Shown here: positions 7,488-10,410 of the stretch, piece after piece | Layout of the letters: each line of letters begins with the position of its first letter | Position numbering within the stretch: the stretch's first letter is position 1 | Assembly (NCBI RefSeq): GCF_009193175.1 | Contig: NZ_VUKE01000013.1 | Location: 62,001-126,000, forward strand | Source of the DNA: Georgenia ruanii | GTDB lineage: Bacteria > Actinomycetota > Actinomycetes > Actinomycetales > Actinomycetaceae | Direction of reading: 5' to 3' | Length of the DNA: 64,000 nt | Position numbers and translations under genes: made by a program | The notes under the pieces: generated by a model | The model's database searches: none | What the model saw: the letters and a program-made list of their open reading frames with translations, nothing else | Told to the model about the DNA's origin: nothing

Positions 7488-8570
7488 TCAGGCGACGGGC
7501 ACGGCGGCGAGCTGGCCGGTCCAGCGGGCGCCGGTGACCGGCCCGCGCCGGGCGGCGTCCGCCCCCGCGCCACGGGTGGCGGCGGCGGCGCGGACCGCGG
7601 GGCGCTGCGCCGTCGGCGCGTTCGCCACCGCCTGCTCTGCCACCAGACCCCGGGTGCGCAGCTCGGGCAGGACCCCGCGCAGCAGGCCCACGACGTCGGC
7701 GGGAAGGGACCCGGGCAGGACGACGAACCCGTCGGCCGCTCCGCCCTGCACCCAGGTCTGGATGAGGTCGGCGACGTCGCCGGGGGTGCCCACCGCGCTC
7801 AACGCGCCCCGCCAGGGCGCGTCGTCGCCGTCGATGTCGGCGACGAGCTCGGCCCGCGCCTCGGCGCTGGCCCGGTCGGCGGAGATCACAGCGTGGAGGT
7901 CGACGAGGACCCGCACGTCCTCACGGCCCGCGGCCCGGGCCGCGGCGCGGACGGCGTAGCGCAGCTCGCGGGCCCACTCCAGGTCCTGCTCGCGGATGCG
8001 CACGACGTCGGCGAAGGACCCGGCGAGCTCCACCTCGGACTCGGTGCTCACCGGGACACAGACGCGGGGGCGCGCCGCCTTCGCGGCGCCCGCCCGGCGC
8101 GGCAGCGTGCCGGTCACGCCCGAGAGGGTACGGGCCAGCGCGTCGGTGTCGCCGTTGTGGTCGCTGACCTGCAGGCCCGCCCAGGCACCGCCGGTCGAGC
8201 TGATCTGGGCCAGCTCACCGGCGACGAGGGACAGGTCGGCGCCGCGCACCGGGACGCTGGGCACCAGGCCGGCGGCCGCGTGGGGGCTGATGCGGCGGGC
8301 GGCGACCACCGGGTCGAGCCAGGAGTCGTGCCGCACCGCGCGGTCGCTGCGCAGGCGGAACTGCTCGCCGAGAGAGACGAAGGAGACCCCGCCGCGGTGG
8401 GCGGAGCGGGTGTACGAGGCCAGCCGGGCCAGGTCGGCCTTCTCGACGGGCAGGTCGGCGGAGAAGCCGTCGGTCGCGCCGCTCACGCCGAGACCGGTGA
8501 GGTCGAGGCCGATGGTGGCCTTGGCGGCGGAGGGGCGAGCGGTGCGGGTGGGCAGCAGGGAGATAGACAT
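7488..8570 (-). CDS. LLM-class flavin-dependent monooxygenase, probably sulfur-related
   Basis: This 360-residue protein is a luciferase-like (alpha/beta)8 flavoenzyme. Features are a substrate/flavin segment with VSFVSLGEQFRLRSDRAVRH (about residues 62-82), SPHAAAGLVPSV, and a C-terminal DLIQTWVQGGAADGFVVLP segment typical of the nitrilotriacetate/dibenzothiophene/alkanesulfonate monooxygenase group. That group uses FMNH2 or FADH2 from a reductase partner; none is encoded next door. The ATG at 8570 begins MSISLLPTRT; the longer upstream frame is leader sequence. The gene sits behind a SAM-IV-like riboswitch, a Met/Cys-rich leader peptide and a hairpin, which argues for a role in acquiring sulfur from organic compounds (inference). 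Confidence 0.8.
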   Translation of the reverse strand: MSISLLPTRTARPSAAKATIGLDLTGLGVSGATDGFSADLPVEKADLARLASYTRSAHRGGVSFVSLGEQFRLRSDRAVRHDSWLDPVVAARRISPHAAAGLVPSVPVRGADLSLVAGELAQISSTGGAWAGLQVSDHNGDTDALARTLSGVTGTLPRRAGAAKAARPRVCVPVSTESEVELAGSFADVVRIREQDLEWARELRYAVRAAARAAGREDVRVLVDLHAVISADRASAEARAELVADIDGDDAPWRGALSAVGTPGDVADLIQTWVQGGAADGFVVLPGSLPADVVGLLRGVLPELRTRGLVAEQAVANAPTAQRPAVRAAAATRGAGADAARRGPVTGARWTGQLAAVPVA

Positions 8571-8610
8571 GGGTGCACATCCAGAAGGTGTCGTCGCGCG
8601 ATGCGCGGTG

Positions 8611-8647
8611 AAGCAAGGAAGGAGGCCTGCCCGGCCGGTCCCAGGCC
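8611..8647 (-). promoter_or_regulatory. Attenuator-like hairpin with pyrimidine tract before the LLM monooxygenase
   Basis: On the minus strand GGCCTG and CAGGCC (8624-8647) form a stem around a 12-nt CG-rich loop, followed at once by TCCTTCCTTGCTT. It lies between the leader peptide stop (8733) and the enzyme start (8570), where an attenuator would be expected. Confidence 0.45.
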
Positions 8648-8732
8648 GCGGTGTGTCACGCACCCGGCGAGGGGGCTCTGGGCAGGGGTGATGCGTCGGC
8701 GGCTCAGCGCCGGGGCATCGCGGAGAACGTCG

Positions 8733-8825
8733 TCAGGCGGACATTCGCGAACGACAGCACATGGACATGCACATGGAGCGGCGAGGCGAGAGGGCGATCT
8801 GCCTGGGGCTCGGGTGCGTGTTCAT
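8733..8825 (-). CDS. Sulfur-amino-acid-rich leader peptide (30 residues)
   Basis: The ATG at 8825 opens a 30-codon ORF ending RRSMCMSMCCRSRMSA. Seven of its last 13 residues are Met or Cys, and the run follows an ...SPRR segment, resembling the RRxxxxCR leader peptides found before sulfur genes in actinomycetes (comparison from memory). AAGGA lies about 12 bases upstream of the start. The position, between a SAM-IV-like riboswitch and the monooxygenase it precedes, suggests ribosome stalling when charged Met-tRNA or Cys-tRNA is scarce. Such peptides usually have no function after translation. The ORF could be chance in GC-rich DNA, but the density of Met and Cys codons is far above background. 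Confidence 0.6.
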   Translation of the reverse strand: MNTHPSPRQIALSPRRSMCMSMCCRSRMSA

Positions 8826-8873
8826 CGTCGTTCTGGTTCCTTCGTGCTCATGCACCTGGAGGTGCCGTGCGTT

Positions 8874-8894
8874 GCCCCACGAGGACCGTGGGGC
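8874..8894 (-). promoter_or_regulatory. Hairpin directly 3' of the riboswitch core
   Basis: A perfect 8-bp stem (GCCCCACG / CGTGGGGC) with a 5-nt loop abuts the P1 end of the putative SAM riboswitch. It may be the extra 3' helix of SAM-IV RNAs or part of the expression platform. Confidence 0.5.
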
Positions 8895-8990
8895 CAGGTC
8901 ATCACCCGGGGCACCCCCAGCACGTGGGGGGTTGCCGACCAGCAAGCCGGGGCTTAGCGCACGTGGTGCGCACTGGTGCTCTGAACCTTG
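8893..8990 (-). ncRNA. SAM-IV-like (S-box-related) riboswitch
   Basis: Read on the minus strand from 8990, the RNA has AGGTTCA ... TGATGACCT as P1 arms, CCAG pairing with CTGG around TAAGCCCCGGCTTG, then the conserved CGGCAACC junction, a CCCCCA/TGGGGG hairpin, and GGTGCCCCGGGTGATGACC. This order and these sequence blocks match the S-adenosylmethionine riboswitches of the SAM-I/SAM-IV superfamily in actinobacteria, where SAM-IV predominates. These RNAs repress sulfur and methionine genes when SAM is abundant. A good -10/-35 pair would start transcription almost exactly at its 5' end. Assignment is by eye; a covariance search would settle the class. Confidence 0.75.
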
Positions 8991-8996
8991 TGGCCG

Positions 8997-9026
8997 ACGC
9001 TAGGCGAGGCGAAGTTCACGTGTCAA
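8997..9026 (-). promoter_or_regulatory. Sigma70-type promoter for the SAM-riboswitch/LLM transcript
   Basis: On the minus strand TTGACA (complement of 9021-9026) and TAGCGT (8997-9002) are 18 bases apart. The predicted start, around 8990, coincides with the 5' end of the riboswitch. Confidence 0.6.
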
Positions 9027-9102
9027 CAATCCGGACCGCGCGTCTCGCGTGGTGGTCCGGGCCGGGGCTCGTGCGGCCACCCGCGGGCCGAGCCCGGCCC
9101 TC

Positions 9103-10251
9103 CTAGCGGCGCCGGCGCGGCCGCACCTGCGCGAGGTCGTCGCGGTGGACGACGGCGCGCGGGTGCTGGTCGAAGTTGTCGGCGAGCTGGTGGCTGGACT
9201 TGCCCATGATGTGCGGGATCTCGGCGGCGCCGTAGGCGGTCAGCCCGCGAGCGACGACGCCGTCGGGCCCCACCAGCTCCACGACGTCGCCGGCCTCGAA
9301 GTCGCCGTCGACGCCGACGACACCCGCGGCCAGCAGGGACCGCTTGCCGTCGGTCACGGCGCGGGCCGCCCCGGCGTCGAGGTGCAGCCGGCCGCGCACC
9401 TGCGCCGCGTGCGCCAGCCACAGCCGCCGGGCGGATTTGCGCCGACCGGTGGCCGCGAACCAGGTGCCCACCTGCTCCCCCGCGAGCGCGGGCGAAATGT
9501 TGGCCGCGGAGGTGAGCACCACGGGGATGCCGGCCCCCGTGGCGATGGAGGCGGCGTCGAGCTTGGTGACCATGCCGCCGGTGCCGATGTCGCTGCCGCG
9601 CCCGGTCACCTCCACCCCGGCGAGGTCGGCGCTGCCGCGGACCTCGCGGATGAGCCGGGTGCCGGGCCGGGAGGGCGGCCCGTCGTAGAGGCCGTCGACG
9701 TCGGTGAGCAGCACGAGCGCGTCGGCGCGGACGAGGTGGGAGACGAGCGCGGCGAGCCGGTCGTTGTCGCCGAAGCGGATCTCGTCCGTGGCGACGGTGT
9801 CGTTCTCGTTGACGATCGGCACGACGCCGAGGGTGAGCAGACGCTCGAGCGCCCGCTGGGCGTTGGCATAGTTGGTCCGGCGGATGAGGTCCTCGGCGGT
9901 GAGCAGCACCTGCCCGACCCGGCGGCCGTGGTAGGCGAACGCCTCGGTGTACCGCGCCACGAGCAGGCCCTGCCCGACGCTGGCGGTGGCCTGCGCCGTC
10001 GCCAGGTCCTTGGGCTTGCCCGGCAGGCCGAGCGGCATGATGCCCGCCGCGATCGCGCCGGAGGAGACGAGGACGACCTGCTGCCCGGCGGCGCGCCGCT
10101 CGGCCAGCACCTGCACGAGGTGGTGGACGGCGGACAGGTCGAGGCGGCCGTCCGGGGCCGTGAGCGAGGACGACCCCACCTTCACGACGATCCGCGCGGC
10201 GGTCGGCAGCTCGGAACGGCTGGTCAGCGGCAGGTTCACGGCTCTCATCAT
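9103..10251 (-). CDS. proB: Glutamate 5-kinase
   Basis: ProB phosphorylates L-glutamate to gamma-glutamyl phosphate, the first step of proline synthesis, in the cytosol. The protein (about 382 residues) has the amino-acid-kinase start RIVVKVGSSSLT, LVSSGAIAAG, PIVNENDTVA and GTGGMVTKLDAA, followed by a C-terminal PUA domain (about residues 280-375, with GRLHLDAGAARAV). Full length matches PUA-containing ProB proteins. Two adjacent ATG codons (10251 and 10248) are possible starts and neither has a clear Shine-Dalgarno. proA is not in the window next to it; obg is about 6 kb away although proB usually follows obg in this phylum, so the locus has been rearranged. Confidence 0.93.
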   Translation of the reverse strand: MMRAVNLPLTSRSELPTAARIVVKVGSSSLTAPDGRLDLSAVHHLVQVLAERRAAGQQVVLVSSGAIAAGIMPLGLPGKPKDLATAQATASVGQGLLVARYTEAFAYHGRRVGQVLLTAEDLIRRTNYANAQRALERLLTLGVVPIVNENDTVATDEIRFGDNDRLAALVSHLVRADALVLLTDVDGLYDGPPSRPGTRLIREVRGSADLAGVEVTGRGSDIGTGGMVTKLDAASIATGAGIPVVLTSAANISPALAGEQVGTWFAATGRRKSARRLWLAHAAQVRGRLHLDAGAARAVTDGKRSLLAAGVVGVDGDFEAGDVVELVGPDGVVARGLTAYGAAEIPHIMGKSSHQLADNFDQHPRAVVHRDDLAQVRPRRRR

Positions 10252-10263
10252 CCCGCACGCGCG

Positions 10264-10410
10264 GCGTGGTCCGCGCCGGGCGTCCAGGTGCGGCGCCTGC
10301 GGCATGGTCGGCGCCGGCCGTCCCGGTGCGGCACCCCCGGGCGTGGTCGGCGCCGGCCATCCAGGCGCGGCACCCCCGCGGGGTCCGCGCCCGGCGTCCA
10401 GGCGCTACAC
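10264..10410. repeat. About 38-bp degenerate tandem repeat, 4 copies, in the proB/FAD-oxidoreductase intergenic region
   Basis: Units start near 10264, 10302, 10341 and 10378 and share the pattern GCGTGGTCSGCGCCGGSCGTCCAGGTGCGGCAC. The rest of the 353-base gap (10411-10604) shows no gene; divergent promoters are expected there but none was clear. Confidence 0.65.

Follow-up and report, generated by a model that had tools for sequence, protein, structure and literature searches.

A Met/Cys-rich leader ORF between a SAM-IV riboswitch and a sulfur-poor monooxygenase-like gene in Georgenia and related actinobacteria: a candidate two-input sulfur-starvation leader

A short open reading frame (ORF) with a run of Met and Cys codons lies between a SAM riboswitch and the gene for a monooxygenase-like enzyme in a 64,000-nt stretch of DNA (hereafter referred to as the window) from a Georgenia-like actinobacterium, for which Georgenia thermotolerans provides the nearest named locus (93% protein identity, in a search that may omit records very near the window). 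This observation, first made in a preliminary description of the window, is confirmed, and the interpretation given there is partly supported. The arrangement is probably best explained as a leader with two inputs that responds to sulfur starvation.

The elements are arranged on the minus strand in the order proB-like kinase, SAM-IV aptamer, Shine-Dalgarno sequence (SD), leader ORF, 162-nt spacer and monooxygenase-like gene, and are listed below in the coordinates of the window.

9103-10305, minus strand: proB-like amino acid kinase that contains a PUA domain (family search)
8862-8987, minus strand: SAM-IV riboswitch aptamer (Rfam RF00634, 59.8 bits against a gathering threshold of 38)
8838-8843, minus strand: SD GAAGGA of the leader ORF (conserved; folds pair it with the pyrimidine tract, matched-versus-swapped p=0.0012)
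8814-8832, minus strand: predicted helix A, 5' arm, in the leader start region; its partner, 8750-8772, is the Met/Cys run (folds; matched-versus-swapped p=0.0018)
8733-8825, minus strand: leader ORF MNTHPSPRQIALSPRRSMCMSMCCRSRMSA, 30 codons, ATG start, stop TGA included in the span (conservation, shuffles)
8754-8774, minus strand: Met/Cys codon run MCMSMCC, the proposed sensor codons (Met/Cys kept in relatives by differing codons; survey enrichment)
8725-8746, minus strand: predicted hairpin H1 across the leader stop codon, GAAUGUC/GACGUUC (in 11 of 11 representatives; swap p=0.061, not significant)
8690-8719, minus strand: predicted hairpin H2, GAUGC..GCAUC (covariation)
8626-8686, minus strand: predicted stem H3, CCUGCCC/GGGCAGG, around a hairpin (8650-8665) whose loop is of the GUGACA type (covariation)
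8610-8625, minus strand: pyrimidine tract CCUCCUUCCUUGCUUC, putative anti-Shine-Dalgarno partner or possible Rho-loading element (folds, swap test)
7488-8570, minus strand: LLM-type flavin-monooxygenase-like gene, 360 aa, ATG at 8568-8570 (partial TIGR03860 match under the cut-off, AlphaFold2 model, composition)

Reading of the span 8733-8825 bears out the 30-codon ORF of the preliminary description, with seven Met/Cys codons among its last 13, in both coordinates and content. The SAM riboswitch placed there upstream of the leader is recovered as a full-length match to RF00634 (model positions 1-116, with the conserved core aligned), and the pyrimidine tract placed close before the monooxygenase gene ends about 40 nt from its ATG. 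Dinucleotide shuffles of the window's own aptamer-to-gene stretch were used to assess chance occurrence. An ORF at the observed level of six Met/Cys (at least two of them Cys) per 10 codons occurred in none of 20,000 shuffles, while 11 reached five Met/Cys and 170 reached four or more. Judged on its sequence and conservation, the leader ORF is not a chance product.

Relatives of the enzyme were sought in 59 genomes, 32 of which had a match, and an alignment of the enzyme was searched against a genome collection, yielding 52 loci, many only distantly related; SAM-IV was detected in 13 of 17 loci in one scan and in 12 of 16 in another. In one clade the Met/Cys leader ORF lies ahead of the enzyme gene in 26 of 26 loci read and SAM-IV is found in 25 of them; these loci correspond to 24 distinct contigs, as L009/L092 and L015/L099 are each one contig taken twice, and L089-L091, being contigs of L002, L004 and L006, were left out of the reading. 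The start, the SD and the Met/Cys run are conserved in all 26, the start in L013 being TTG or GTG. The leader shares two traits with amino-acid leader-peptide attenuators, namely an SD of its own together with conservation among orthologous loci, and a run of pathway codons at every locus read, the latter provided that the enzyme has the sulfur role suggested below. The Georgenia-type leaders read roughly M(N/T)TH..SPRQ...S.RRSMCM.MC.RSRMS(A/L/I/V), and examples from Occultella, Ruania and Actinotalea are MGTITRERATTPLQISLAMCCCSMSVQA, MIQDRTTVPQRPALRFATCMMCCCSMSA and MAQAQVPGFGRSTRTTTGTCCMCMCLCTMA; in distant genera Met and Cys are retained with a different order of codons, and L013, from the same order, has a leader ...ARMCRARMCCPSMCRQGALV that begins at the TTG or GTG. 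Alignment, the check proposed for the ORF and its run in riboswitch-bearing relatives, found both kept, save in the sister locus L016, where SAM-IV is present but this ORF is lacking. A tree was built from 28 proteins, 18 from the 26 leader-bearing loci and 10 from loci without a leader. A single branch (support 100/99) separates the leader-bearing proteins from the rest, and midpoint rooting makes L016 their sister; identity to the window protein goes down to 37% within the clade. On this tree the leader has one origin and has been retained since.

At 22 of the 25 aptamer-bearing loci of the clade, the distance from aptamer to leader start is 33-39 nt, the exceptions being L010 and L011 at 20 nt and L013 at 19 or 31 nt according to the start codon chosen. 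For comparison, direct genes at leader-free SAM-IV loci, called with an approximate criterion of SD and codon bias that succeeded at 97 of 118 loci and failed at 21, start most often at 30-49 nt (44 of 97), with quartiles of 34, 43 and 80. The leader therefore starts where direct genes most often begin, as in upstream ORFs (uORFs) of the Mycobacterium tuberculosis type. Since it occupies the usual place of a directly controlled gene, the riboswitch probably gates its translation, and the predicted SAM-IV element, as judged from position, most likely acts on the initiation step at the leader ORF. The place of the leader under SAM-IV also suggests the ordering suspected in the preliminary description, namely control by SAM and by Met/Cys in series.

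The peptide as a whole does not appear to be the conserved feature. Among 13 aligned ORFs, single-base codon differences in frame comprise 159 synonymous and 408 nonsynonymous changes, while the +1 frame, with 275 and 302, has the larger synonymous share; pairwise differences are fewest at codon position 3 and most numerous at codon position 1. Purifying selection on the whole peptide was rejected on these counts, which show none across the ORF. The frame is kept nevertheless: leader lengths differ by multiples of three nucleotides only, and all 13 ORFs end in TGA. The pattern of codon differences indicates that conservation covers the reading frame, the Met/Cys run and a handful of further residues. 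Part of the conservation of the run may be structural, since it pairs with the leader start in helix A, and so may be the final Met, as the RMSA tail overlaps H1 and the stop codon lies in the H1 loop.

The predicted RNA structures of the leader and the spacer were examined by a swap test of duplex energies with matched versus species-swapped arms, using 11 of 16 sequences after near-copies were dropped. The p-values are 0.0012 for the SD with the pyrimidine tract, 0.0018 for the leader start with the Met/Cys run (helix A), 0.0004 for H2, and 0.0018 and 0.0064 for the outer and inner parts of H3, and they serve as guides, since swapping leaves relatedness in and the arms were chosen after the folds had been seen. 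A gene-start hairpin had no swap support (p=0.17) and H1 was set aside as a swap-supported helix (p=0.061, not significant). Helix A is also strongly predicted in seven distant loci, a prediction made without a control. RNAalifold, run on the structure-free alignment A4 (12 sequences), recovered H2 and H3 with 22 pairs, nine of them changed on both sides. The covariation score on the drawn structure is 0.276 against 0.134 in shuffles (none of 500 as high) and at most 0.052 in slid versions; further pair types are no commoner than in shuffles, 286 of 500 being as high. Covariation supports the predicted pairing of the leader start with the Met/Cys run and of the SD with the pyrimidine tract, in addition to H2 and H3, which would shape the spacer. 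The GGCCTG/CAGGCC hairpin of the preliminary description is present as sequence at 8624-8647; as a conserved hairpin it was rejected, because its 3' arm pairs instead with CCUGCCC at the far end of H3, and the conserved pairing, CCUGCCC/GGGCAGG around an inner hairpin, reads CCUGACC/GGUCAGG in several relatives.

A search of positions 8400-9200 detected neither an intrinsic terminator nor a sigma-70 promoter, so that the locus departs from a classical attenuator with an intrinsic terminator before the gene, and no Rfam family other than SAM-IV was found in the spacer region up to E=5. The spacer is C-rich (71 C versus 47 G), which together with the lack of an intrinsic terminator makes the involvement of Rho possible. 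A ribosome-driven switch of gene-start accessibility was sought in folds and gave no consistent pattern: although the helices above are conserved, 13 sequences folded with the leader blocked at the first Cys codon, the stop or the start showed no consistent change at the gene start. A model of the spacer, R1, was searched under stricter filters against 297 genomes of the order and matched in 4, all in the genus of the window or that of G. satyanarayanai. At distant loci its matches are weak (E 0.05-0.6), lying in the right place in L015/L099, L098, L096, L101, L100 and L102, with a slightly better match off place in L102, and L013, L016 and L097 have none. L012 (2479-2813, minus strand) retains the leader ORF, MNTHRTLGQSPSTLRSEVMCMCMCGRARMSA, and also the structure of the spacer, which matches R1 at 45.1 bits; no SAM-IV remnant is detected there up to E=10, making this locus a natural experiment for the two sensors.

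The regions downstream of other SAM-IV aptamers were surveyed for ORFs with at least four Met/Cys, at least two of them Cys, per 10 codons. Such ORFs were identified in 9 of 130 regions against 0.68 expected from shuffles, and the reverse strand, used as a control, gave 1 of 130 at a score of 4 or more; a score of 3 carries no signal (13 on the forward strand, 17 on the reverse, 5.0 expected). The 130 regions are a nonrandom set made up of 51 from two locus lists and 79 hand-picked among the best matches listed; the set leaves out seven loci of the window's gene (L041, L042, L043, L045, L048, L052 and L053), many loci of one large genus taken as Streptomyces, and L170, whose region is incomplete. 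Among the nine, L058 and L039 belong to the window's gene family and L212 is probably a chance ORF inside a gene. The leaders MCIRRMCCR, MARSPMRCCCQ, MRASLCPLSRCCCR, MCCCRMN and VKVDVMCRCRMTGVAGA precede MetY-like genes, assigned by family search at L066 only and by resemblance at the others. The leader MQINSAAPRATTASSLMAACMCTCECRR precedes a TsuA/YeeE-like transporter that scores 411 bits with the TsuA model, under its cut-off of 645, and lies above the cut-off for Pfam Sulf_transp. The sulfur leaders of the survey start mostly 36-41 nt past the aptamer, with L040 at 14 and L209 at 19. The survey suggests that the leader design is not confined to the window's gene.

Some SAM-IV loci are also of note individually. 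L040 (genome G010) has SAM-IV, a leader ending MAACMCTCECRR and then a TsuA/YeeE-like transporter. A second SAM-IV of one genome, G000:C36:163770-163882 (L046; also L050), precedes by 20 nt a 108-aa ORF that begins VSADPTPAPCTPGPC and is followed by a regulator-like gene. An ORF ending TVLTARRHIDLQRTDSAVCPR lies downstream of the SAM-IV aptamer at L037, and its end resembles the RHxDLxR type of leader peptide found before Streptomyces sulfur genes.

The monooxygenase-like protein has no Pfam match, and its match to the NtaA/DmoA family TIGR03860 is partial, at 66.9 bits against a cut-off of 279.7. Its AlphaFold2 model (mean pLDDT 78.1) resembles YtnJ/CmoJ, BdsA, DmoA, SfnG and SsuD, with a best E of 1.7e-17 and TM scores, normalised by query length, of 0.51-0.63 among the 50 best matches listed. 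Several of these fold relatives are, going by entry titles, enzymes that use organic sulfur compounds as substrates, and the resemblance suggests that the job of the enzyme is probably sulfur salvage.

The enzyme is itself poor in sulfur. The window protein has only its start Met and one Cys, and the proteins of the 26 leader-bearing loci have 17 Met+Cys in 8826 residues against 163 expected from the mean of 1.85% in 28 coding-like ORFs of the window, about ten times below expectation, with depletion seen in each leader-bearing locus read. The strength of the depletion lies in the family, since for the window protein alone P is about 0.01 and values as low as 0.48% occur among the window's other ORFs. 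Eleven homologues counted without a leader, mostly from smaller genomes, average 2.8% Met+Cys (0.98%-5.7%) and do not overlap with the leader-bearing group (Mann-Whitney p=1.7e-6, a value that overstates independence because the leader label changes once on the tree). As the leader and the sulfur depletion both map to one origin, their association represents one event that has been kept and not many. The best survey-type score within 330 nt upstream of the 11 homologues is 3. Two loci, L014 and L019, which have no SAM-IV, carry upstream ORFs ending CRQRRMCS and CRMCR that are possible weak or degenerate sulfur leaders; these blur the leader comparison, from which the depletion relative to Georgenia's own genes stands apart. 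A low content of sulfur amino acids in proteins made during sulfur starvation is a known theme.

In the two-input explanation, high SAM would close the leader and low SAM would open it to translation, and the Met/Cys run would then report, by the speed or stalling of the ribosome, how much charged Cys-tRNA and Met-tRNA is available. An untranslated leader would be locked by two pairings, as the covariation suggests: that of its SD with the pyrimidine tract close to the gene, and that of its start region with its own Met/Cys run. The position of the ribosome would set whether these locks and the spacer hairpins H1-H3 hold and thereby the expression of the gene, the last step being translational or Rho-dependent. 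The enzyme, almost free of Met and Cys, could be made while both are scarce. A more far-reaching version, which we put forward tentatively and would not bet on at even odds, regards the locus as a module of sulfur economy, in which the SAM riboswitch gates a sensor ORF, the Met/Cys codons both sense charging and lock their own start, the enzyme has been purged of Met and Cys by selection so that it can be made as the sensor stalls, and the same design was reached or kept at MetY-like and TsuA-like genes in other actinobacteria.

Two other mechanisms could account for part of these data. SAM-IV may switch translation of the leader, with translation itself controlling the gene by opening structure or barring Rho from the C-rich spacer, and the Met/Cys codons slowing elongation or being incidental. 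The position of the leader at the commonest start of direct SAM-IV genes, the spacer of 71 C to 47 G with no intrinsic terminator, and precedents in M. tuberculosis (available text of PMC11260477 and PMC12810186) all agree with such control without amino-acid sensing. It leaves unexplained, however, the retention of Met/Cys by other codons in distant genera, the leader at L012 in the absence of SAM-IV and the recurrence of sulfur codons in the leaders of other SAM-IV loci, and is considered unlikely. The run might instead be kept mainly for its RNA pairing in helix A, the peptide being a by-product and tRNA not being sensed; the swap test of helix A (p=0.0018), its strong though uncontrolled prediction in seven distant loci and the absence of amino-acid constraint in the rest of the ORF are in keeping with this. 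Many sequences could pair, yet Met and Cys recur, for instance in the unrelated MCIRRMCCR, MARSPMRCCCQ and MCCCRMN; the frame survives codon-sized changes in length and a sulfur-poor enzyme is present at every leader-bearing locus, so that pairing as the main cause appears less likely still. GC-rich leaders often hold short ORFs, which speaks for a chance ORF in an untranslated spacer; against 0 of 20,000 shuffles matching the run, the start, SD and run in 26 of 26 loci read and the frame and stop in the 13 aligned, it is extremely improbable.

The components of the two-input leader have parallels in known systems. In Salmonella mgtA/mgtL a metal-responsive RNA and a leader peptide share a transcript, as two sensors do here, in a system that differs in its signal (Mg2+), its codons (proline) and its lineage. 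Riboswitch-to-uORF control has been described in M. tuberculosis for a B12 switch with uPPE2 and ppe2 (PMC11260477) and for Mbox-uORF-pe20 (PMC12810186), where, according to the available text, a translational riboswitch likewise acts on a short ORF between the switch and the gene and, in Mbox-pe20, the first uORF has several Cys codons, described as rare codons (PMC12810186). Those systems have other ligands and genes, and the portions of PMC11260477 and PMC12810186 available contain no mention of sulfur sensing; ppe2 is coupled through an AUGA stop-start overlap (PMC11260477), whereas the gap from stop to gene in Georgenia is 162 nt. Leader peptides before actinobacterial sulfur genes, known as the preliminary description had it (PMC1262725 and PMC8079986, in the text available), include the Cys leader peptides of Seliverstov 2005 (PMC1262725) and the Cys-responsive attenuation in M. 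smegmatis of Canestrari 2020, as cited in the accessible parts of PMC9031893, PMC9094748 and PMC13236596. These also have a short ORF ending in a Cys run before sulfur genes and no obvious terminator; as described in those parts, the ORFs in M. smegmatis are leaderless and their Cys codons contiguous, whereas the Georgenia leader is led by an SD, combines Met with Cys and lies downstream of a SAM-IV aptamer, which sets it apart from the leaderless poly-Cys attenuators. The metL leader before metNIQ, a methionine transport operon of S. lividans, is a mixed Met/Cys leader ending RCMCRRMCAF, described as leaderless and, in the available text, without mention of a riboswitch (PMC8079986). In Xanthomonas a SAM-I leader integrates SAM and Met-tRNA charging; there the RNA binds uncharged initiator tRNA directly and the accessible text describes no leader peptide (PMC7270179).

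The locus would combine the known riboswitch-plus-uORF and Cys/Met leader types. The suggestion that the arrangement may be undescribed holds to this extent, that riboswitch uORFs are known in M. tuberculosis, as the partial texts above indicate, and the open-licence literature available yielded no description of a SAM-IV riboswitch followed by a sulfur-codon leader, which constitutes weak evidence of novelty because most subscription papers lie outside that search.

If the two-input explanation is true, one short transcript would sense first SAM, the end product, and then the charged tRNAs for its precursors, and the sulfur-control logic of the actinobacteria would become testable by simple reporters. 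The codons of the proposed sensor match the composition of its target, and the nearly sulfur-free enzyme would be a separate indication, from evolution, of the conditions in which the gene is used.
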